IMG/VR virus record: IMGVR_UViG_3300037502_001914
Location: 1 to 42,721 of that record
Source of the DNA: a virus
Reading direction: 5' to 3' (one strand)
DNA: 42,721 bases
The notes below the pieces were generated by a model, which did not search any database, was not told the DNA's origin, and saw only the letters and a program-made list of their open reading frames with translations. Each line of letters opens with the position of its first letter. Within the stretch, counting starts at the first letter, position 1. The translations under genes were made by a program, and so were the position numbers. Shown here piece after piece: positions 28,529-42,721 of the stretch.

Positions 28529-30286
28529 ATGGCTAAAAAGAAAGTAACAAAAGATGATGCATTAGAAATATTAAAAAATTATAATGGTAATAATGATTAT
28601 TTAGTTAACATACATAATCTTTATTATAGTAACCCTAACTTTTATTTGACAGATAGTCAGATTGAATATATAACATTATTTAGTGAAATAAAACCAAAGA
28701 TTGCAAGAAAATGGGTTGATTTGGATCAGTATTATGCAAATATGATTGCTGATGATAAGTTATTGATTGAAATTCCTAAAAAATTATGGGTTGAAAAATT
28801 GCTTGTTGAAAAAGAAAAATCATACCACATTCTTGGTAAATTTTTTGAAAATGATAAATTAAATCTCCTTTGGATTCCAAAAGATGCTATTATTGTTGAT
28901 AAGACAAATAAGAATATTGAAGTTGATTTTGAAAAATATTCACATAGGATGCCTTTTCAGCATCAAAAGGAAGCAATTATAAAGCTGCTTGAAAATGATA
29001 AATTTATATTAGCAGATGATATGGGTTTGGGCAAAACAAGTTCAGCAATTGTTGCTTCAATTGAAGCAAAACCAAATAAAACATTGATAATATGTCCGGC
29101 AAGTTTAAAACAGAATTGGAAGAGGGAAATTCAAAATTATACAGATAAAGCAATTTATATTTGTGAAAGCAAAAATTATGATGATTCTGCTGATTATATA
29201 ATTATAAATTATGATATTCTAAAGAATTTTCATTCATTGAAACCAAAAGAAGAAAGTATAATTCAAAAATCCAAATTTGATTTGGTTATATTGGATGAGT
29301 GTCATTATATAAAAAATCCACAAGCATCCAGAACCAAAATAATAAATGACATTTGCAAAGATATAAACAAAATTTGGTTATTAACTGGTACACCATTAAC
29401 ATCAAGACCAATTGATTATTTTAATTTATTGTCATTGGTTGATAGTCCTGTTTCAAGGAATTGGATGACCTATGTTAGAAGATATTGTGCTGCATATCAA
29501 TTTAATGTTGGAATGAATAAAGTATGGAATGTAAACGGTGCATCAAATTTGGATGAATTAAGGGAAAGAACTGCTCCAATATTATTGAGGAGGTTAAAAG
29601 AAAATATATTAGACTTACCAGAAAAGATAATAACACCAATTTATTTAAAATTAAAATCAAAAGAATATGAGAATGTAATGGGTGAATATTTTGATTGGGT
29701 TAAAAACAACCCAAAAGAATCAAAATCATTAAGTGTTCAATTCACAAAACTTATGAAAGTTAGACAAATTATTGCTGATGAAAAAGTTAAGAACACCATA
29801 GAATTGATTGAAAATACACTAGAACAAGAAAGAAAGGTTATTGTGTTCTCAAACTTTACAGATTCATTAAACAAGATATATGAACATTTTAAAAAGAATG
29901 CAGTTAAATTAGATGGAAGTTCCACTATGAAACAACGTCAAGATAGTGTGGATAAGTTTCAGAATGAAGATAAAATTAAAGTCTTTGTTGGAAATATAAA
30001 AGCTGCTGGTGTTGGTATCACCTTAACAAGTGGTGATGTTGTTATATTTAATGATTTATCTTTTGTTCCAGCTGATCATAGTCAAGCTGAAGATAGAGCA
30101 TATAGAATTGGCCAAAAAAATTCTGTATCTGTGCTTTATCCAATATTTGAAAACACCATTGAGGGAATTATATATGATATGTTGGATAGAAAGAAAAAAA
30201 TAATATCCACAGTATTGGGTGATAACTTAATTGAAACAGATACAACTGAAGATATTTTAACACAAATATTAAATTTTGCAAAATAA
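28529..30286 (+). CDS. SNF2-family (SMARCAL1/UvsW-like) DNA helicase/translocase
   Basis: 585 residues. An N-terminal ~140-residue domain precedes a two-lobed superfamily 2 motor. Motifs in order: MPFQHQKEAI (Q-like), ADDMGLGKT near 162-170, IICPASLKQNW, LDECHYIKN near 255-263, LLTGTPLTS near 284-292, VFVGNIKAAGVGITLT, and SQAEDRAYRIGQ near 518-529. This set is typical of SNF2 ATPases that remodel or anneal forked DNA. T4 UvsW does fork regression with a related motor. It could act in recombination-dependent replication, or against host chromatin-like defences. First gene on the plus strand of the accessory island. No clear promoter in the 86-nt gap. Confidence 0.88.
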   Translation: MAKKKVTKDDALEILKNYNGNNDYLVNIHNLYYSNPNFYLTDSQIEYITLFSEIKPKIARKWVDLDQYYANMIADDKLLIEIPKKLWVEKLLVEKEKSYHILGKFFENDKLNLLWIPKDAIIVDKTNKNIEVDFEKYSHRMPFQHQKEAIIKLLENDKFILADDMGLGKTSSAIVASIEAKPNKTLIICPASLKQNWKREIQNYTDKAIYICESKNYDDSADYIIINYDILKNFHSLKPKEESIIQKSKFDLVILDECHYIKNPQASRTKIINDICKDINKIWLLTGTPLTSRPIDYFNLLSLVDSPVSRNWMTYVRRYCAAYQFNVGMNKVWNVNGASNLDELRERTAPILLRRLKENILDLPEKIITPIYLKLKSKEYENVMGEYFDWVKNNPKESKSLSVQFTKLMKVRQIIADEKVKNTIELIENTLEQERKVIVFSNFTDSLNKIYEHFKKNAVKLDGSSTMKQRQDSVDKFQNEDKIKVFVGNIKAAGVGITLTSGDVVIFNDLSFVPADHSQAEDRAYRIGQKNSVSVLYPIFENTIEGIIYDMLDRKKKIISTVLGDNLIETDTTEDILTQILNFAK

Positions 30287-30620: not shown

Positions 30621-31205
30621 TTATCTTTTTATTACTCCATTTATATACCCTCCTGGTTTTACCATATTTCTAATCTCCCATGCTTTATAATTTTTTAATG
30701 GTTCAGACAAGTATAGATTACGACCAACTTTCAATCCTTCTGGTAATAATTCTATTCTTGAAAATGATAAATCTAAATAACCAACAACTTGCAAACCTTC
30801 TGGCAATGAGGTTAGGGTTGAAAATTCTAAATGCAAATTACCACCAACTTTCAAACCTTCTGGTAATGATTCCATAGATGAATATTGTAAATGCAAATTA
30901 CCTCTAACTATCAAATCTTTTGGCAATGATTCAATTGCTGATTTATATAATAGCAAATCACCACCAACCTCCAATCCTTCTGGTAGTGAGGTTATTTTTG
31001 AACCTCTTAAAGATAAATCACCCCCAACTTTCAATCCTTCTGGTAATGAGGTTATACTTGAAAATCTTAAATCCAAATCACCTTTAACATTTAATTCTTC
31101 TTTTGTTAATGGTATATTATTAATTAATTTCCATTTAACTGGTGCTCTATGCTCTCCCTTCTCTTCAAGGAAATCAAATATTCTTTTTAGTGCTTCTTTT
31201 TCCAT
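30621..31205 (-). CDS. LRR-repeat protein, cistron 11 (last)
   Basis: 194 residues, six full 20-residue repeats plus a terminal cap. The N-terminal cap MEKEALKRIFDFLEEKGEH is typical of the array. Its end, LKNYKAWEIRNMVKPGGYINGVIKR in substance, is the most divergent C-terminal cap. Repeat 6 has VVGYLDLSFSRIELLPEGL, with variant positions near the conserved G. It is the only cistron separated from its upstream neighbour by a gap (3 nt) instead of an overlap, and it is directly followed by the bidirectional terminator. Confidence 0.85.
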   Translation of the reverse strand: MEKEALKRIFDFLEEKGEHRAPVKWKLINNIPLTKEELNVKGDLDLRFSSITSLPEGLKVGGDLSLRGSKITSLPEGLEVGGDLLLYKSAIESLPKDLIVRGNLHLQYSSMESLPEGLKVGGNLHLEFSTLTSLPEGLQVVGYLDLSFSRIELLPEGLKVGRNLYLSEPLKNYKAWEIRNMVKPGGYINGVIKR

Positions 31206-31208
31206 TAT

Positions 31209-31610
31209 CTAATATATATTTCCATTTATATAACCAGGTTTTATCATTTCTCTTAATTCATCATCTGAAAGTTTTTCTAATTTTGATCCTCTAGTAAATA
31301 AATCACCCTCTAATTTCAAACCTTTTGGCAATAATGTTATTGATGTGTATCTTAAATACAAATCGCCACCAATTTTCAATCCTTCTGGTAATGAGGTTAT
31401 TGCTGATCCAAATAATAACAAATTTCCCATAACTTTTAACCCTTCTGGTAGTGAAGTTATATTTGAATTATGTAAATCTAAATCACCTTCAATATTTAAA
31501 TCATCTTCTCTTAATGGTATATCATGCCTCAATTTCCATAATAATGGTGGATTACAATTTTCATTCTCTTCAAGAAAATCAAATATTCTTTTTAGTTGTT
31601 CTTTTTTCAT
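31209..31610 (-). CDS. LRR-repeat protein, cistron 10
   Basis: 133 residues, the shortest of the array, with three full repeats. N-terminal cap MKKEQLKRIFDFLEENENC. The last repeat is degenerate (KLEGDLFTRGSKLEKLSDDE) and runs straight into the C-terminal cap ELREMIKPGYINGNIY. ATG overlaps the stop of cistron 9 by one base. The 5' end and junction lie in a 93-bp stretch identical to the cistron 3/4 junction, so this gene boundary was duplicated. Confidence 0.85.
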   Translation of the reverse strand: MKKEQLKRIFDFLEENENCNPPLLWKLRHDIPLREDDLNIEGDLDLHNSNITSLPEGLKVMGNLLLFGSAITSLPEGLKIGGDLYLRYTSITLLPKGLKLEGDLFTRGSKLEKLSDDELREMIKPGYINGNIY

Positions 31611-31668
31611 TATATTAATATTTCTCCATGTATAAATCCAGGATAAACCATTTCTCTTAATTCATCCT
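31576..31668 (-). repeat. 93-bp gene-junction block identical to 34570-34662
   Basis: Covers the N-terminus of cistron 10, the one-base overlap, and the C-terminal cap of cistron 9. Identical to the cistron 4/cistron 3 junction. Confidence 0.9.
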
Positions 31669-32092
31669 CATAATCATCATTATAATCATAGTCATCAGCT
31701 AATGGAGTTCCAATTAAGTCCAAATCACCGCCAACTTCCAATCCTTTTGGTAATGATTTTATATCTGTATATACTATATTCAAATCACCGCCAACTTCTA
31801 ATCCTTCTGGTAGTGATGTTATTTTTGTATTAGCCAAAGACAAATCACCCCCAACTTTCAACCCTTTTGGTAATAACATTATCTTTGAAATGGATAAATC
31901 TAAATCACCTTCAACTTTCAACCCTTCTGGCAATGAAGTTATATTTGATTGAAACAAATTCAAATTGCCTTTAACATTTAAATCTTCTTCTATTAATGGT
32001 TCATTATTTTTAAATTTCCATAAAAATGGTGCTCTATGCTCTCCCTTCTCTTCAAGAAACTCAAATATTCTTTTTAGTGCTTCTTTTTTCAT
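31610..32092 (-). CDS. LRR-repeat protein, cistron 9
   Basis: 160 residues, four full repeats. The C-terminal cap is a variant shared only with cistron 3: an acidic loop (ADDYDYNDDYEDEL) followed by REMVYPGFIHGEILI. Its 3' end is part of the 93-bp duplicated junction (31576-31668). Start overlaps the cistron 8 stop by 4 nt (ATGA). Confidence 0.85.
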   Translation of the reverse strand: MKKEALKRIFEFLEEKGEHRAPFLWKFKNNEPLIEEDLNVKGNLNLFQSNITSLPEGLKVEGDLDLSISKIMLLPKGLKVGGDLSLANTKITSLPEGLEVGGDLNIVYTDIKSLPKGLEVGGDLDLIGTPLADDYDYNDDYEDELREMVYPGFIHGEILI

Positions 32093-32676
32093 GTCCTATA
32101 TATCTTTCCTTTTATAACTCCAGGTTTTATCATTTCTCTTAATTGTTTATTTGTGTATTTTTTTAATGGTGTGTTATATATATGTAAATTACCACCAACT
32201 TTCAAGTCTTCTGGTAATGAGGTTATATTTGAATATGCTAAATTCAAATAACCACCAACTTTCAAACCTTTTGGTAATGAGGTTATATTTGAATATGATA
32301 AATACAAATTACCTCTAACTATTAACCCTTCTGGTAATGATTTTATTTTTGAATAATGTAAATACAAATCATCACCAACTTCCAATCCTTCTGGTAATGA
32401 TATTATTTCTGAATATGATAAATCCAAATAACCAAAAACTTTCAAGCCTTCTGGTAATGAGGTTATGTTTGAATCATTTAAATTTAAATTCCCCTCAACC
32501 TCTAATCCTTCTGGCAATGAGGTTAGAATTGTTCTTCTTAAATCCAAAGTACCACTAACTTTCAAATCTTCTTTTGTTAATGGTATATTATTAATTAATT
32601 TCCATTTAACTGGTGCATTTTGCTCTCCTTTCTCTTCAAGGAAATCAAATATTCTTTTTAGTGCTTCTTTTTTCAT
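32089..32676 (-). CDS. LRR-repeat protein, cistron 8
   Basis: 195 residues, six full repeats. It shares a 128-bp identical block with cistron 5 (32213-32340) and a 76-bp identical block with cistron 6 (32333-32408), so it is a mosaic of two relatives. One repeat has GDD in place of GGD (EVGDDLYLHYSKIKSLPEGL), a variant also found in cistron 6. Start overlaps the cistron 7 stop by 4 nt. Confidence 0.87.
   Translation of the reverse strand: MKKEALKRIFDFLEEKGEQNAPVKWKLINNIPLTKEDLKVSGTLDLRRTILTSLPEGLEVEGNLNLNDSNITSLPEGLKVFGYLDLSYSEIISLPEGLEVGDDLYLHYSKIKSLPEGLIVRGNLYLSYSNITSLPKGLKVGGYLNLAYSNITSLPEDLKVGGNLHIYNTPLKKYTNKQLREMIKPGVIKGKIYRT
32213..32340 (-). repeat. 128-bp block identical to 33845-33972
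   Basis: Base-by-base identical in cistron 8 and cistron 5, beginning and ending at GGTAATGA. Flanks differ, so this is an internal segment copy and not a whole-gene duplication. Confidence 0.9.
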
Positions 32677-33080
32677 CTCCTATATATCTTTCCTTTTATA
32701 ACTCCAGGTTTTATCATTTCTATTAATTGTTTATTTGTGTATTTTTTTAATGGTGTGTTATTTATATGTAAATTCCCACCAACTTTCAATCCTTCTGGTA
32801 GTGAGGTTATTTTTGAACCCATTAAAAATAAAGCACCTTCAACTGTTAAATCATTTGGTAATGAGGTTATGTCTGTTAAATATAAATTCAAATAACCACC
32901 AACTTTCAATCCTCTTGGTAATGAGGTTATTTTTGAGTAATGTAAATTCAAATCACCTTTAACATTTAAATCTTCTTCTATTAATGGTTCATTATTTTTA
33001 AATTTCCATAAAAATGGTGCTCTATGCTCTTCCTTCTCTTCAAGGAAATCAAATATTCTTTTTAGTGCTTGTTTTTCCAT
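32673..33080 (-). CDS. LRR-repeat protein, cistron 7
   Basis: 135 residues, three full repeats, one with a shifted consensus (TVEGALFLMGSKITSLPEGL). The C-terminal cap (TPLKKYTNKQLIEMIKPGVI) is nearly the same as that of cistron 8, and the DNA of the two 3' ends is almost identical, pointing to recent copying. ATG overlaps the cistron 6 stop by one base. Confidence 0.85.
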   Translation of the reverse strand: MEKQALKRIFDFLEEKEEHRAPFLWKFKNNEPLIEEDLNVKGDLNLHYSKITSLPRGLKVGGYLNLYLTDITSLPNDLTVEGALFLMGSKITSLPEGLKVGGNLHINNTPLKKYTNKQLIEMIKPGVIKGKIYRR

Positions 33081-33664
33081 TATCTAACTATATCATATTT
33101 TATAAATCCAGGTTTAATCATTTCTCTTAATTCATTATCTAAATATTGTTCTAATTCTGTATATCTTATATATAAATTCTCACCAACTTCTAAGCCTTCT
33201 GGTAATGAAGTTATTTTTGTTCCACTTATATTCAACTCACCCCCAACTTTCAACCCTTTTGGTAATGAGGTAATTTCTAATCCTTCTAAATTTAAATACC
33301 CTTTAACATTTAATCCTTCCGGTATTGATGTTATTTTTGATTGAAAAAGGGTTAAACTATTCCCAACTTTTAAGCCTTGTGGTAATGATTTTATTTTTGA
33401 ATAATGTAAATACAAATCATCACCAACTTCCAATCCTTCTGGTAATGATATTATTTTTGAATATGATAAATCTAAAGTACCACTAACTTTTAATCCTTTT
33501 GGTAATGATTTTATTTTTGAATCAAATAAATCCAAATCACCTTTAACATTTAAATCTTTTTCTGTTAATTGAATTTTACTCTTCACTTTCCACAAGAATG
33601 GGGGGTTACAATTTTCCTTTTCTTCAAGGAATTTAAATATTCTTTTTAGTGCTTCTTTTTTCAT
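33080..33664 (-). CDS. LRR-repeat protein, cistron 6
   Basis: 194 residues, six full repeats. The variants in repeats 4 and 5 (KVGNSLTLFQSKITSIPEGL and NVKGYLNLEGLEITSLPKGL) are the least regular in the array. It shares 76 identical bases with cistron 8 (33381-33456). C-terminal cap ends KYDIVR rather than KGKIYR. Start overlaps the cistron 5 stop by 4 nt. Confidence 0.85.
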   Translation of the reverse strand: MKKEALKRIFKFLEEKENCNPPFLWKVKSKIQLTEKDLNVKGDLDLFDSKIKSLPKGLKVSGTLDLSYSKIISLPEGLEVGDDLYLHYSKIKSLPQGLKVGNSLTLFQSKITSIPEGLNVKGYLNLEGLEITSLPKGLKVGGELNISGTKITSLPEGLEVGENLYIRYTELEQYLDNELREMIKPGFIKYDIVR

Positions 33665-34188
33665 GTCCTATATATCTTTCCTTTTATAAATCCAGATTTT
33701 ATTATTCCTCTTAATTCTTTATTTGTGTATTTTTTTAATGGTGTGTTATCTATATGTAAATTACCACCAACTTTCAAGTCTTCTGGTAATGAAGTTATTT
33801 TTGAATAAAATAAATTCAAATCACCACCAACTTCCAATCCTTTTGGTAATGAGGTTATATTTGAATATGCTAAATTCAAATAACCACCAACTTTCAAACC
33901 TTTTGGTAATGAGGTTATATTTGAATATGATAAATACAAATTACCTCTAACTATTAACCCTTCTGGTAATGAGGTTATATTTGAATAGGTTAAATACAAA
34001 TTACCTCTAACTATTAACCCTTCTGGTAATGAGGTTATATTTGTATGAGTAAAAGACAAATCACCCTTAACATTTAAATCTTTGTCTGTTAATGGAATTT
34101 TATTCTTCAATTTCCACAAAAGGGGTCCAAGATGCTCTCCCTTTTCTTCAAGAAATTCAAATATTCTTTTTAGTGCTTCTTTTTCCAT
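33661..34188 (-). CDS. LRR-repeat protein, cistron 5
   Basis: 175 residues, five full repeats. Two neighbouring 60-bp DNA units (33905-33964 and 33965-34024) differ at only two bases, so one repeat was recently duplicated in place. A 128-bp block (33845-33972) is identical to cistron 8. The C-terminal cap has IIKSGF where others have MIKPGF. ATG overlaps the cistron 4 stop by one base. Confidence 0.87.
   Translation of the reverse strand: MEKEALKRIFEFLEEKGEHLGPLLWKLKNKIPLTDKDLNVKGDLSFTHTNITSLPEGLIVRGNLYLTYSNITSLPEGLIVRGNLYLSYSNITSLPKGLKVGGYLNLAYSNITSLPKGLEVGGDLNLFYSKITSLPEDLKVGGNLHIDNTPLKKYTNKELRGIIKSGFIKGKIYRT
33845..33972 (-). repeat. 128-bp block identical to 32213-32340
   Basis: Second copy, in cistron 5; codes for the repeats with LAYSNITSLPKGL and LSYSNITSLP. 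Confidence 0.9.
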
Positions 34189-34604
34189 TAGTTATATATT
34201 TCTCCTTTTATAAAACCTGGCTTTATCATTTCCCTTAATTCTTCATCTGAATATTTTACCAATGGTGTATGAGTTATATCTAAATTGCCACCAACTTTTA
34301 ATCCTTTTGGTAATGATGTTAGTTCTGTATCTGTTAAATCTAAAGTACCACTAACTTCCAAGTCTTCTGGTAATGATTTTATTTCTGAATATGACAAATC
34401 CAAATAACCAAAAACTTTCAATCCTTTTGGTAATGATGTTATTTTTGTTGATATTAAATTCAAATCTCCTTTAACATTTAATTCTTCTTTTGTTAGGGAT
34501 TCATTAAATTTTAATTTCCAAATAAACTTATCTCTATCTTTATGTTTTTTGTTTTCTTTTTCTTCAAGGAAATCAAATATTCTTTTTAGTTGTTCTTTTT
34601 TCAT
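34188..34604 (-). CDS. LRR-repeat protein, cistron 4
   Basis: 138 residues, three full repeats. The segment between N-terminal cap and first repeat is longer and basic (ENKKHKDRDKFIWKLKFNE), like cistrons 1 and 3. Its 5' end lies in the 93-bp block (34570-34662) identical to the cistron 9/10 junction. ATG overlaps the cistron 3 stop by one base. Confidence 0.85.
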   Translation of the reverse strand: MKKEQLKRIFDFLEEKENKKHKDRDKFIWKLKFNESLTKEELNVKGDLNLISTKITSLPKGLKVFGYLDLSYSEIKSLPEDLEVSGTLDLTDTELTSLPKGLKVGGNLDITHTPLVKYSDEELREMIKPGFIKGEIYN

Positions 34605-34662
34605 TATATTAATATTTCTCCATGTATAAATCCAGGATAAACCATTTCTCTTAATTCATCCT
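34570..34662 (-). repeat. 93-bp gene-junction block identical to 31576-31668
   Basis: Second copy of the junction block, between cistrons 3 and 4. It shows that the array grew partly by copying segments that span gene boundaries. Confidence 0.9.
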
Positions 34663-35080
34663 GATTATAATCATCAGCTAATGGAGTTCCAGTTAAGTCC
34701 AAATCGCCATTGACTTCCAACCCTTTTGGTAATGATGTGATTTTAGAAAATGATAAATCCAAACTACTCACAACTTCCAACCCTTCAGGTAATGAAGTTA
34801 TGTTTGTTTCTGCTAACCACAAATGACCCCCAACTTTCAAACCTTTTGGTAAAGAAGTTAAGTGTTTACAATGGGATAAATCCAAATTTCCTTCAACTTT
34901 TAACCCTTCTGGCAATGAAGTTATATTTGATTTATACAAATTCAAATTACCTTTAACATTTAAATCTTCTTTTGTTAATGGTTCATTGAAAATTAATTTC
35001 CATTTTAATGTGTCTTTATATTTTTTACCCTCCTTCTTTTCAAGGAAATAAAATATTCTTTTTAGTGCTTGTTTTTCCAT
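34604..35080 (-). CDS. LRR-repeat protein, cistron 3
   Basis: 158 residues, four full repeats, one of 21 residues (with SHCKHLTSLPKGL). Linker basic (EGKKYKDTLKWK). C-terminal cap of the rare acidic-loop type (ADDYNQDELREMVYPGF), shared with cistron 9. ATG overlaps the cistron 2 stop by one base. Confidence 0.85.
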   Translation of the reverse strand: MEKQALKRIFYFLEKKEGKKYKDTLKWKLIFNEPLTKEDLNVKGNLNLYKSNITSLPEGLKVEGNLDLSHCKHLTSLPKGLKVGGHLWLAETNITSLPEGLEVVSSLDLSFSKITSLPKGLEVNGDLDLTGTPLADDYNQDELREMVYPGFIHGEILI

Positions 35081-35859
35081 TATCTAATTATTTTTCCTTT
35101 TATAAATCCAGGTTTAATCATTTCTCTTAATTCTTTATTTGTGTATTTTTTTAATGGTGTGAAATTTATATTCAAACTCCCACCAACTTTCAAATCTTTT
35201 GGTAATAAGGTTATAGATGAAAATGCTAAATCAAGATTACCACCAACTTCCAATCCTTCTGGCAATGAGGTTATGTTTGAACTTATTAAATTCAAACCAC
35301 CTCTAACTTTTAATCCTTTTGGTAATGAGGTTAGAATTGTTTTTCTTAAATCCAAAGTGCCACCAACTTTCAAATCTTCTGGCAATGAGGTAATATTTGT
35401 ATTACCTAATCGCAAATTTCCACCAACTTCCAATCCTTTTGGTAATGATGTTATTTTTAAATTAAAAGTACTTGAATATGTTAAATCCAAATCACCACCA
35501 ACTTTCAACCCTTCTGGTAATGAGGTTATTCTTAACCCTCTTATATCCAAATTACCACCAACTTCCAATCCTTCTGGTAAGGAACTAATAGTTGAATAGA
35601 GTAAAGTCAAATTACCCCCAACTTTTAAGCCTTTTGGTAATGATTTTATATTTACATATGTTAAATCCAAATCACCACCAACTTTCAACCCTTCTGGTAA
35701 TGATGTTATTTTTGAATCCCGTAAGTCCAAGTCACCACCAACTTCCAAATCTTCTTCTATTAATGGTATTCCATTTTTCCATTTCCATAAAAATGGAGGG
35801 TTACAATTTTCCTTTTCTTCAAGGAAATCAAATATTATTTTTAGTGCTTCTTTTTCCAT
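35080..35859 (-). CDS. LRR-repeat protein, cistron 2 (longest)
   Basis: 259 residues, nine full repeats. One repeat is 25 residues because of a five-residue insertion around STFNL, which would bulge from the solenoid. N-terminal cap reads MEKEALKIIFDFLEEKENC (Arg to Ile compared with the others). ATG overlaps the cistron 1 stop by one base. The run of near-identical repeats makes it the best candidate for gain or loss of units by recombination. Confidence 0.87.
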   Translation of the reverse strand: MEKEALKIIFDFLEEKENCNPPFLWKWKNGIPLIEEDLEVGGDLDLRDSKITSLPEGLKVGGDLDLTYVNIKSLPKGLKVGGNLTLLYSTISSLPEGLEVGGNLDIRGLRITSLPEGLKVGGDLDLTYSSTFNLKITSLPKGLEVGGNLRLGNTNITSLPEDLKVGGTLDLRKTILTSLPKGLKVRGGLNLISSNITSLPEGLEVGGNLDLAFSSITLLPKDLKVGGSLNINFTPLKKYTNKELREMIKPGFIKGKIIR

Positions 35860-36341
35860 TATCTAATTATTTCTCCTTTTATAAATCCAGGTTTAATCAT
35901 TTCCCTTACTTCTTCATCTGAATATTTTGTTAATGGTGTGTACTTTATATACAAAATCTTACCAACCTCCAATCCTTTTGGTAATGAGGTTATGGCATCA
36001 CAACCAATTATGTTTAATTCACCACCAACTTTTAAATCATCTGGCAATGATGTTATTTTTTTTTGACCTCTTAAATCCAAACTACCCCCAACTTCTAATC
36101 CTTCTGGTAATGATGTTATTTTTGTTTCATATAAACTCAAAAAACCACTAATTTTCAATCCTTTTGGTAATGATTTTATTTTTGATTTATACAGAATCAA
36201 ATTACCTTTGAAATTTAAATCTTCTTCTGTTAATGGGTAATTAAGCATAATTTTCCATGTTAGAGTTCTTTTATATTTTGGTATTTTATTTTCCTTCTCT
36301 TCAAGAAAATCAAATATTCTTTTTAGTTTGGTAATATCCAT
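35859..36341 (-). CDS. LRR-repeat protein, cistron 1 (first of eleven)
   Basis: 160 residues from the ATG at 36341 (MDITKLKRIF). A TTG at 36398 extends the frame but lies beyond the promoter box and inside the SOD gene, so it is rejected. The shared plan is an amphipathic N-terminal helix (LKRIFDFLEEKE), a WK..N.PLTEEDL linker, 20-residue repeats of type KVGGDLxLxxSxITSLPEGL, and a C-terminal cap (LxxYxxEEVREMIKPGFIKGE). It has four full repeats, two of them 21 residues long. The pattern is a leucine-rich solenoid, with the LP of each repeat recalling YopM/IpaH-type LRRs. No signal peptide, membrane segment or catalytic motif. A late box (36350-36357) is 8 nt upstream. Function unknown. Confidence 0.85.
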   Translation of the reverse strand: MDITKLKRIFDFLEEKENKIPKYKRTLTWKIMLNYPLTEEDLNFKGNLILYKSKIKSLPKGLKISGFLSLYETKITSLPEGLEVGGSLDLRGQKKITSLPDDLKVGGELNIIGCDAITSLPKGLEVGKILYIKYTPLTKYSDEEVREMIKPGFIKGEIIR

Positions 36342-36375: not shown

Positions 36376-37065
36376 ATGAAAATACTAGAAACAATCAAAG
36401 AAGAAATAATATCAAGAATACATAAAGATAATGTTGATTTCTTAATTCAAGAAATGAAAAAAGTTGGCATTGAAAAACTTCCTTATTCATATGCTTCATT
36501 AAAACCTTTTGTTGATGAAAAGACAATGAATATTCATTATAACAAACATTATATTGGTTATGTGGATAAATTGAATAAAGCATTAAAGAAAACAAAATCA
36601 AATGGTGATTTAAAGCAAATCATATCAAATATAAGCAAATATGATGATAAGATTAGGAATAATGCTGGTGGCGCATTTAATCATGCTTTATTCTGGAATA
36701 TGTTAACCCCCACCAAAAAGGATGTTCCAAGTGAATTAAAAACAAAAATAAATGCAAGTTTTGGAACATTTAATGCTTTCAAGAAAAAGTTTGAGGAAGT
36801 TGCAAAAGACCATTTTGGATCTGGATGGGTCTGGCTTGTTGCAACCAAAAATAATAGATTAAAAGTGATAAGCACACCAAACCAGGATAACCCCCTTATG
36901 AATGTGATTAAGGATGGGGGTTTTCCAATATTGGGATTGGATTTATGGGAACATGCTTATTATCTAAAATATCAAAACAAAAGGGATGAATATATTCATA
37001 ACTTTTGGGATTATGTAAATTGGGGTTTTGTTCTTGAATTATATCAAAATGCAAATGATAAGTAG
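36376..37065 (+). CDS. sod: Fe/Mn superoxide dismutase with N-terminal extension
   Basis: 229 residues. It would convert superoxide to H2O2 and O2. All four metal ligands are present: H54 (MNIHYNKH), H103 (GGAFNHALFWNML), D189 and H193 (LDLWEHAYYLKY). H58 and the GSGWVWLV segment are also conserved. About 30 residues precede the usual SOD start (IEKLPYSY.SL.PFVDEKT); they are not hydrophobic enough for a signal peptide, so the enzyme is probably cytoplasmic or carried in the virion. Fe versus Mn preference cannot be read by eye. It faces the LRR operon across a shared promoter region and is followed 39 nt later by gp13. Confidence 0.92.
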   Translation: MKILETIKEEIISRIHKDNVDFLIQEMKKVGIEKLPYSYASLKPFVDEKTMNIHYNKHYIGYVDKLNKALKKTKSNGDLKQIISNISKYDDKIRNNAGGAFNHALFWNMLTPTKKDVPSELKTKINASFGTFNAFKKKFEEVAKDHFGSGWVWLVATKNNRLKVISTPNQDNPLMNVIKDGGFPILGLDLWEHAYYLKYQNKRDEYIHNFWDYVNWGFVLELYQNANDK

Positions 37066-37104: not shown

Positions 37105-38232
37105 ATGTCAGTAATAGCCGAGCCGGAAAGAACACAAATTTATACAAGAGTTCGTCATTTACTTGGTGCTCCATTAAGGGGTGTTGAGATAACTGATGAA
37201 ATGATGGATTCATTAATGGAACTTTCTGTTCAAGATTATGAACAGTATGTTCTTAATTGGCTTATAGATAGCCAATGGGTAAATCTTGTAAACTTAAATA
37301 TGTCTGAGAAATCTGTTGCAAATGCTTTAATCACTAAAACAATGGATTTTCAAAAACAATATGAATATTCATATTCAAAGATTGTTGGATTGCAATCTGG
37401 TGGTCCTTGGGTCTTACAGAAAGATTATTTTACATTAGAGCCAAACAAACAAATATATGAAATTCCAGCTGGAAGAGAAGTGAATGAATTGCTTTGGTTT
37501 AGCAATCAACCTTGGACTGCATTTGGTTTAGGAGGTGTTGGCGGATTTGGATTTGGTGGAATTGGTCTTGGTGCAACAGAGGCGGGTTATGCACAATTGG
37601 GTTATCAAGGTTCTTACTTTATGATGTCAGGATTTGATTATCTTGTTAGAATGCAAGAAGCAAATATATTAAATAGAATTCTAGGAGGTTCATTAACATA
37701 TAGAATAACAGGATTACCTGATGGAAAAAAAGCCATCCAATTGTATAACACACCTGGTGGTAGATTTAATTGGAGCAATTTCTCATTATATGTTGGAAAA
37801 CAAGTATGGTATTGGTATTATGAGGTAGATGGTGATAGCCGTGGAAAATGTTTGGAAGATAATCCAGATATTATAAGATTACCATCTGATGTTCCATTAA
37901 CAGATTTAACTTGGGATAAATTAAACCAACCATCAAAACATTGGGTTAGAAGGTGGTTTACAGCCTATGTAAAGGAGAGTTTAGGTAGAGTTAGGGGAAA
38001 ATATAGCGGAGCAATAAAAGTCCCAGATTCAGACCTAAAAATGGATTATGAATCATTGATTACTGAAGGTAAAGATGAAAAACAAAAATTGCTTGAGGAA
38101 CTAATTGGTGAAAATGGTACATTATCAAGGCTAAGACCTGAAAAACAAATGGAAAAAGAAGCAAATATTGCTGAAAACTTAAACAAACAATTAAAGTTTG
38201 TTGCAATGCCAAGACAAATTTATGTAATTTAA
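37105..38232 (+). CDS. 13: Neck protein gp13-like
   Basis: 375 residues (T4 gp13: 309). The N-terminal VRHLLGAPLRGVEITDEMMD, then SVQDYEQYVLNW, follows the T4 gp13 plan 'ilrrLGaPiinVElT.dqi...i..Al..Y'. The C-terminal YVKESLGRVRGKYSGAIKVP, with a later 'LITEGKDEKQKLLEEL', is the conserved end of this family. A Gly-rich insertion (GLGGVGGFGFGGIGLG) near residues 141-156 accounts for the extra length. gp13 joins the portal vertex to the tail with gp14. A TATATAAA string lies 7 nt before the ATG. Separated from gp14/gp15-like genes by the 8.5-kb accessory island. Confidence 0.75.
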   Translation: MSVIAEPERTQIYTRVRHLLGAPLRGVEITDEMMDSLMELSVQDYEQYVLNWLIDSQWVNLVNLNMSEKSVANALITKTMDFQKQYEYSYSKIVGLQSGGPWVLQKDYFTLEPNKQIYEIPAGREVNELLWFSNQPWTAFGLGGVGGFGFGGIGLGATEAGYAQLGYQGSYFMMSGFDYLVRMQEANILNRILGGSLTYRITGLPDGKKAIQLYNTPGGRFNWSNFSLYVGKQVWYWYYEVDGDSRGKCLEDNPDIIRLPSDVPLTDLTWDKLNQPSKHWVRRWFTAYVKESLGRVRGKYSGAIKVPDSDLKMDYESLITEGKDEKQKLLEELIGENGTLSRLRPEKQMEKEANIAENLNKQLKFVAMPRQIYVI

Positions 38233-42195: not shown

Positions 42196-42721
42196 ATGAA
42201 AAACATTTTTAAAACGTTGCTATTATCATTAGTAACGTTAACAATTGGTTATGGTCAAGTAACAACTTCGGCTATATCAGGTACAGTTAAAGATGCAAGT
42301 AATGAAGTGCTTATTGGTGCAACCATTGAGGCAGTTCATTTACCATCTGGAACAAGTTATGGCACATCCACAGATGTAGATGGTGCATATAGAATTTCAG
42401 GTATGCGTATTGGTGGACCTTATAGCATTACAGTTAGTTATGTGGGCTATGCTACAAAAACCCAATCAAATGTTATTTTGAACTTGGGTTCAACAGCAAC
42501 CTTAAATTATTCACTTGATGTGGTTGAGTATGGGTTGACTGAAGTTACCATTAATGCAAACAAAAGTGGTATTTTCTCCTCTACTAGAACAGGTGCATCC
42601 ACACAGTTTAACTCAACTGTAATCAATAGTTTACCAACAATTGGTAGAACAATTGATGACATCACAAAATATAATGCTTATGGAAATGGGCGTTCATTTG
42701 GTGGTCAAGACAGTCGTTTTA
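42196..42721 (+). CDS. TonB-dependent-receptor-like outer membrane protein (5' part)
   Basis: 175 residues visible, open at the window edge. The N-terminus MKNIFKTLLLSLVTLTIGYG is a Sec signal peptide, probably cut before Gln. Next comes a carboxypeptidase-regulatory-like beta domain (SGTVKDASNEVLIGATIEA, then 'GTSTDVDGAYRISGMRIGGP', 'SYVGYATK'). Last is the start of the receptor plug (LTEVTINANK, then 'LPTIGRTIDDITKYNAYGNG', 'SFGGQDSRF'). This order is typical of ~1000-residue TonB-linked receptors of Bacteroidota. It looks less AT-rich than the phage genes. A CTTG-N20-TATACTTG string (42112-42143) could be a degenerate host promoter. Either a phage-acquired host gene or an assembly joint. 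Confidence 0.85.
   Translation, partial: MKNIFKTLLLSLVTLTIGYGQVTTSAISGTVKDASNEVLIGATIEAVHLPSGTSYGTSTDVDGAYRISGMRIGGPYSITVSYVGYATKTQSNVILNLGSTATLNYSLDVVEYGLTEVTINANKSGIFSSTRTGASTQFNSTVINSLPTIGRTIDDITKYNAYGNGRSFGGQDSRF

Follow-up and report, generated by a model that had tools for sequence, protein, structure and literature searches.

In bacteriophage T4, the prohead protease gp21 cleaves head proteins after the motif L/I-x-E (PMC9026906). The propeptide of T4 gp23 is 65 residues long, and N-terminal propeptides are also present in Alt and in the internal proteins, the latter of which reach the prohead by means of N-terminal targeting peptides of 10-19 residues that are removed by gp21 (PMC9026906). 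Superoxide dismutases (SODs) encoded by phages have so far been listed as auxiliary genes that protect the infected cell. For Fe/Mn SODs in general, a survey of the SodFM family found that a C-terminal Gln combined with Gly or Ala at the position called XD-2 mostly goes along with a preference for Mn (PMC10172142).

We analysed a stretch of 42,721 nucleotides (the window) that comprises positions 1 to 42,721 of IMG/VR virus record IMGVR_UViG_3300037502_001914. Its genes for DNA polymerase B, tail tube, baseplate hub, NrdB and an SNF2 helicase identify it as part of a T4-like phage, whose host, judging from the nearest relatives of its SOD, likely belongs to the Bacteroidota. The features discussed below are collected in the following table.

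Table. Positions of the SOD gene, its residues and predicted processing features, and its conserved neighbours in the window
Feature	Positions	Strand	Basis
Fe/Mn superoxide dismutase gene, SodFM1-like, SOD-only form, 229 aa	36376..37065	+	Pfam Sod_Fe_N/Sod_Fe_C, MnSOD PDB relatives, ligands
N-terminal extension (residues 1-26), an acidic amphipathic helix and predicted capsid-targeting propeptide	36376..36453	+	viral-only conservation, model, pI, dN/dS
I24-Q25-E26, predicted prohead-protease site (L/I-x-E)	36445..36453	+	56/56 conservation; T4 gp21 motif (PMC9026906)
Predicted mature SOD, residues 27-229, pI 9.46, net +10	36454..37062	+	model, charge, Foldseek
Metal ligand His54	36535..36537	+	motif and alignment of viral relatives
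Metal ligand His103	36682..36684	+	motif and alignment of viral relatives
Gln170, C-terminal water-coordinating Gln, SodFM1/Mn type	36883..36885	+	residue class per PMC10172142
Gly187 at XD-2, associated with Mn preference	36934..36936	+	alignment; PMC10172142
Metal ligand Asp189	36940..36942	+	motif and alignment of viral relatives
Metal ligand His193	36952..36954	+	motif and alignment of viral relatives
SNF2-type helicase gene, conserved co-directional upstream neighbour	28529..30286	+	Pfam SNF2-rel_dom, Helicase_C
Head-tail adaptor (neck) gene, downstream neighbour of SOD gene	37105..38232	+	PHROG 211 head-tail adaptor Ad2, 4.8e-10

A preliminary description of this DNA had recognized an Fe/Mn SOD with the metal ligands H54, H103, D189 and H193, and this assignment holds. 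The ORF begins with ATG and is uninterrupted, both Pfam domains score well over their cut-offs (Sod_Fe_N, 3e-23; Sod_Fe_C, 1e-39), and all four ligands lie in the expected motifs. The nearest solved structures are MnSODs, with that of Sphingobacterium sp. (6gsc) as the top match (2.8e-64), and an AF2 model of the protein has the SOD fold when compared with the same structure (Foldseek 3.8e-18, TM 0.70/0.77). Both residues that characterize SodFM1 are present, i.e. the C-terminal Gln (Q170) and Gly at XD-2 (G187), and since this pattern goes with Mn in the SodFM survey (PMC10172142), we infer that the protein is a Mn-type SOD (SodFM1) that uses Mn. As far as can be judged from its sequence, the gene product is very probably an active SOD.

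Relatives of this SOD are encoded on at least 593 IMG/VR stretches, as found in a scan of IMG/VR. The ligands and the Gln are kept in all 149 distinct complete viral ORFs, including five that were flagged by a regular expression and that differ solely in residues beside the ligands, which are themselves present on inspection by eye. The viral SOD is under strong purifying selection (dN/dS 0.03-0.17 for whole-gene SOD pairs). When a phylogeny with Bacteroidota SODs was calculated, as the preliminary description had proposed, the viral copies formed a single clade (support 100/99), apart from 79 bacterial SODs that are mostly from Bacteroidota.

The position of the gene is also conserved. The adaptor gene lies directly downstream of the SOD gene in 75 fetched loci of relatives, and the SNF2 helicase gene is found at position -1 or -2 upstream in most relatives. 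In a reverse check that started from the adaptor gene, the SOD gene was directly upstream in 75 of 76 scored contigs, a total that leaves out four unscorable ones; the exception is L440, which lacks it. Within these two sets, both of which are biased to close kin of the window, the SOD is a near-universal core gene of the lineage. The earlier assertion that SOD genes are uncommon in tailed phages thus fails for this lineage. The conserved synteny and the separate viral clade support the assignment of the gene to the phage, and together they exclude host contamination as its source. We found no cultured phage with this SOD family in the phages collection, where most of the matches of higher identity resemble either MnSODs of hosts, filed under host or phage names, or unrelated jumbo-phage SODs. 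A candidate T4 late promoter, TATAAATA, which precedes the start by 9 bp, was set aside, as it is limited to the window and close relatives and is not conserved elsewhere.

The minus strand at positions 30621-36341 of the window carries about nine paralogous genes arrayed in tandem, whose products have 'ALKRIFDFLEE' and 'LTSLPEGLKVGGDLDLS' repeats at the N-terminus and a common C-terminus, and for which no Pfam match was found. The copy number and order of the array vary between close relatives. Such genes also occur at L190:4405-6159 (+) and L190:11936-12906 (-), and a second array adjoins the prohead protease in the related record G002. At the end of the window (42196-42721, +) is the start of a gene for an outer-membrane receptor-type protein of about 1,070 aa, with CarboxypepD_reg and an OMP_b-brl_4 barrel. 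This gene has the same syntenic place in L002:14070-16687, L003:9716-12919, L434 and L436-L438, and is absent there in L004. A TonB-receptor-like protein is unusual in a phage, and we can only guess that it serves in receptor masking, superinfection exclusion or nutrient uptake.

The non-signal N-terminal extension of about 30 residues that had been remarked on in the preliminary description proved to be a genuine part of the protein. It aligns from residue 1 in the viral relatives, is charged and amphipathic, and has evolved under constraint (dN/dS <0.25). The extension is conserved in viral relatives only; several bacterial relatives have Sec/Tat-like signals (by eye) instead. It is acidic (pI about 5.1), and in the AF2 model it is a helix with pLDDT <50 that is separate from the SOD fold.

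In the window, the extension ends at the boundary I24-Q25-E26|M27. The triplet closing the extension is L/I-x-E in all 56 non-redundant viral SODs, with six different residues at x (1.8 bits), and the P1' residue that follows the Glu is Met in 52 of them and Gly in the other four. Two further L/I-x-E sites (51/55 and 47/54 sequences) flank the linker that joins the SOD to a nuclease-like domain found in most relatives (see below). No other position with a variable P2 residue is L/I-x-E in more than 59% of sequences, and 60% is exceeded elsewhere only in the active-site motif D-x-W-E-H, whose middle residue is fixed. As a control, seven protein families outside the head core, taken from the same contigs, were found to contain five conserved, P2-variable L/I-x-E sites in ~3,580 columns. 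At this rate, ~0.09 sites would be expected in the ~62 columns outside both domains, compared to the three seen, a comparison that is post hoc because the domain borders were examined after the motif had been seen. The extension therefore looks, in its sequence, like a propeptide that a prohead protease would cleave.

The evidence for such a protease comes from related records, and the head genes of the window's own phage lie outside the window. Peptidase_S77, the homologue of gp21, is present in 8 of 27 SOD-bearing records and gp23 in 10 of these 27, many of which are fragments. Among the records with Peptidase_S77 is G002, whose SOD is 84% identical to that of the window. The gp23 proteins of SOD-bearing records have a predicted site, SYLINE|A, at residue 60 (4 non-redundant sequences, with P2 invariant), which is close to where the 65-residue propeptide of T4 gp23 ends. 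Similarly, the protein encoded in the position of gp67/68 has a predicted L-x-E|S site at residue 16 in all seven non-redundant sequences. Between the protease and capsid genes, we also observed a putative scaffold gene (L195:3830-5572 (-); L190:6558-8342 (+)) whose product has long acidic, D/E/M-rich repeats and no Pfam match.

The predicted mature viral SODs are strongly basic, with a median pI of 9.55 and a net charge of +12, as compared to 6.96 and 0 in bacterial relatives. Neighbouring phage proteins are mostly acidic, apart from the SNF2 helicase and the repeat proteins. A basic cargo fits binding to packaged DNA, though this is short of proof.

The window encodes the SOD-only form, as do 10 of the 149 distinct complete ORFs; the other 139 are SOD fusions of ~500-520 aa with an extra C-terminal domain of ~259 aa. 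This domain matched no Pfam or PHROG family, but its structure was modelled with confidence (mean pLDDT 87.4). Almost all of the best structural matches to this model are PD-(D/E)XK nucleases, with moderate Z near 8 (archaeal Hjc, Z 8.3; I-Ssp6803I, Z 7.7; also NhoI, DpnI and SPARDA nucleases), and a Foldseek search of the PDB gave no match at E <0.001. Four residues of the domain, E146, D180, Q193 and K195, do not vary among 22 sequences and fit an E...D...(E/Q)-x-K site. The domain thus likely has the PD-(D/E)XK nuclease fold, and we would expect it to have nuclease activity. The SOD-only copies of L035 and L052 group with the fused copy of L048 in the tree and still end in the linker motif, QILE|S, so these two have probably lost the nuclease domain secondarily. 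In the records of SOD-only relatives, which are fragments, a profile search found no nuclease encoded as a gene of its own, and the nuclease domain was never seen without SOD among 433 ORFs, a set whose query design favours close relatives. A domain of an uncharacterized, 1,113-aa protein of an uncultured marine phage (BFVD A0A8D9CCA0) matches the SOD-fused nuclease-like domain (TM 0.75, 20% identity), and this protein is possibly another processed head precursor.

On balance, we favour the hypothesis that the SOD is a capsid-targeted internal head protein that is both packaged and processed, with a prohead protease carrying out its maturation. Because the extension resembles a propeptide cleaved by this protease, a role in the virion or after injection is likelier than a purely cytoplasmic one. 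According to this hypothesis, T4-like phages that probably infect Bacteroidota would use a Mn-type SOD as an internal head protein. The extension, an acidic helix, would be its capsid-targeting propeptide and would dock the SOD in the prohead core. The phage's gp21-type protease would then cut after Glu26 in the L/I-x-E site and free a basic SOD that would remain associated with the packaged DNA. A second cargo, the PD-(D/E)XK nuclease, would in most relatives lie on the same polypeptide past one or two L/I-x-E sites, and as these sites are located between SOD and nuclease, one precursor could give rise to two packaged proteins. The packaged SOD would then probably be injected with the phage DNA, and the nuclease would be ejected along with it. 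SOD might reduce superoxide in the vicinity of the entering genome and the early enzymes, or might protect the genome inside the virion, while the nuclease might act on host or competing DNA. That the SOD protects the infected cell or the virion from superoxide, as previously suggested, is a fair guess. The more specific proposal of a head polyprotein, in which a targeting peptide, SOD and PD-(D/E)XK nuclease are cut apart by the protease in the capsid and both cargoes are delivered at infection, is one that we put forward only tentatively.

Several observations speak against packaging. The L/I-x-E motif is short and common, and arises easily in Glu/Leu/Lys-rich helices such as those of the linker and extension. 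The P1' residue at the SOD site is Met or Gly, whereas it is Ala or Ser at the other putative sites. Moreover, the SOD gene adjoins a neck gene and is outside the prohead-core cluster. The main rival explanation is cytoplasmic ROS defence, i.e. that the gene is an auxiliary metabolic gene for a cytoplasmic MnSOD that shields the infected cell, and that the extension is incidental or aids dimerization. Freshwater phage SODs have been reported and interpreted in this way in an earlier study (PMC6802176), the full ligand set and the strong purifying selection agree with it, and other phage SODs, e.g. that of PA5oct, have metabolic and chaperone genes around them. However, this explanation does not account for three protease-type sites at domain borders, an invariant E26 next to a variable P2, the fusion to a nuclease-like domain, the high positive charge, or the fact that the gene almost always adjoins a virion gene within one lineage, and we regard it as rather unlikely.

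The location immediately upstream of the head-tail adaptor gene in 75/76 scored loci could alternatively mean that the SOD, with or without the nuclease, has a structural or assembly function at the head-tail junction as a partner of the neck protein, with SOD activity being secondary or fold-constrained. We consider this very unlikely, since the active site is intact in all copies, including the second-sphere Gln, neighbouring T4-like genes are not dependable functional partners, and the nuclease domain has been lost in several sub-clades. Least probable, in our view, is that translation begins at Met27, as the true start or as an alternative one, such that the extension corresponds to 5′ sequence or an isoform and not to a cleaved propeptide. 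Although the frequent Met after E26 and the fact that bacterial SODs begin near this point would agree with such a start, L/I-x-E is kept even where Gly takes the place of this Met, in four sequences, the dN/dS of the extension points to conservation at the protein level, and the two additional L/I-x-E sites are in the linker, where a start is impossible.

If the SOD is indeed packaged and injected, the target of its protection moves to the virion genome or to the first minutes of infection, and the delivery of enzymes by the capsid would become a wider theme that extends beyond T4 Alt, in an abundant lineage of aquatic phages. The polyprotein proposal, if true, would further imply that these phages are under selection from superoxide when their DNA enters the cell. 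In a non-exhaustive search of the open-access literature, we found no papers on packaged or injected phage SODs, and an earlier description of the family is possible. One database entry, UniProt A0A6J5L953 (BFVD; uncultured Caudovirales phage, 501 aa), resembles the SOD with C-terminal domain in length, name and fold match; its title says 'superoxide dismutase' only and names neither a second domain nor processing sites.

In comparison to known systems, the phage SODs share their fold, four ligands, C-terminal Gln and XD-2 Gly with SodFM1 enzymes such as the MnSOD of Sphingobacterium sp. T2 (PDB 6gsc/5a9g). Unlike these, they form a clade of their own, have a non-signal N-terminal extension, are strongly basic and are mostly fused to a nuclease-like domain. 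They resemble the freshwater phage SODs discussed under 'phage-mediated ROS defense' in being phage-encoded SODs of aquatic phages, and in the main text of that study we found no mention of a fusion, propeptide or packaging (PMC6802176). With the SOD-like proteins of jumbo phages (gp223 of Pseudomonas phage PA5oct and relatives; Vibrio phage 2.275.O), they have in common SOD-type metal-ligand motifs (by eye) and GSGW, but the jumbo-phage proteins are only 27% identical, are about 180-190 aa long, lack the nuclease domain and are encoded among metabolic genes. The divergent PA5oct gp223 (L431:2935-3483) starts MNDSIKKYISIAE|A, i.e. with I-x-E before Ala. Its record says that it was detected by ESI-MS/MS, which we do not take as proof of virion localization, because the ribonucleotide reductase, thymidylate synthase and ligase of PA5oct share this note.

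The closest parallels are the T4 internal proteins IPI-III and Alt, which are targeted to the capsid, processed by gp21 and later ejected (PMC9026906), and with which the phage SODs share a putative propeptide ending in L/I-x-E, a gp21-type protease in the group, and a basic cargo. The extension, at 26-30 aa, is longer than the T4 targeting sequences and has no clear sequence match to them. The cargo, whose packaging is predicted here, is also different, as it would consist of SOD, in most cases with a nuclease, instead of an ADP-ribosyltransferase or internal proteins. For the packaging of an enzyme as such, T4 Alt provides a precedent (PMC9026906).
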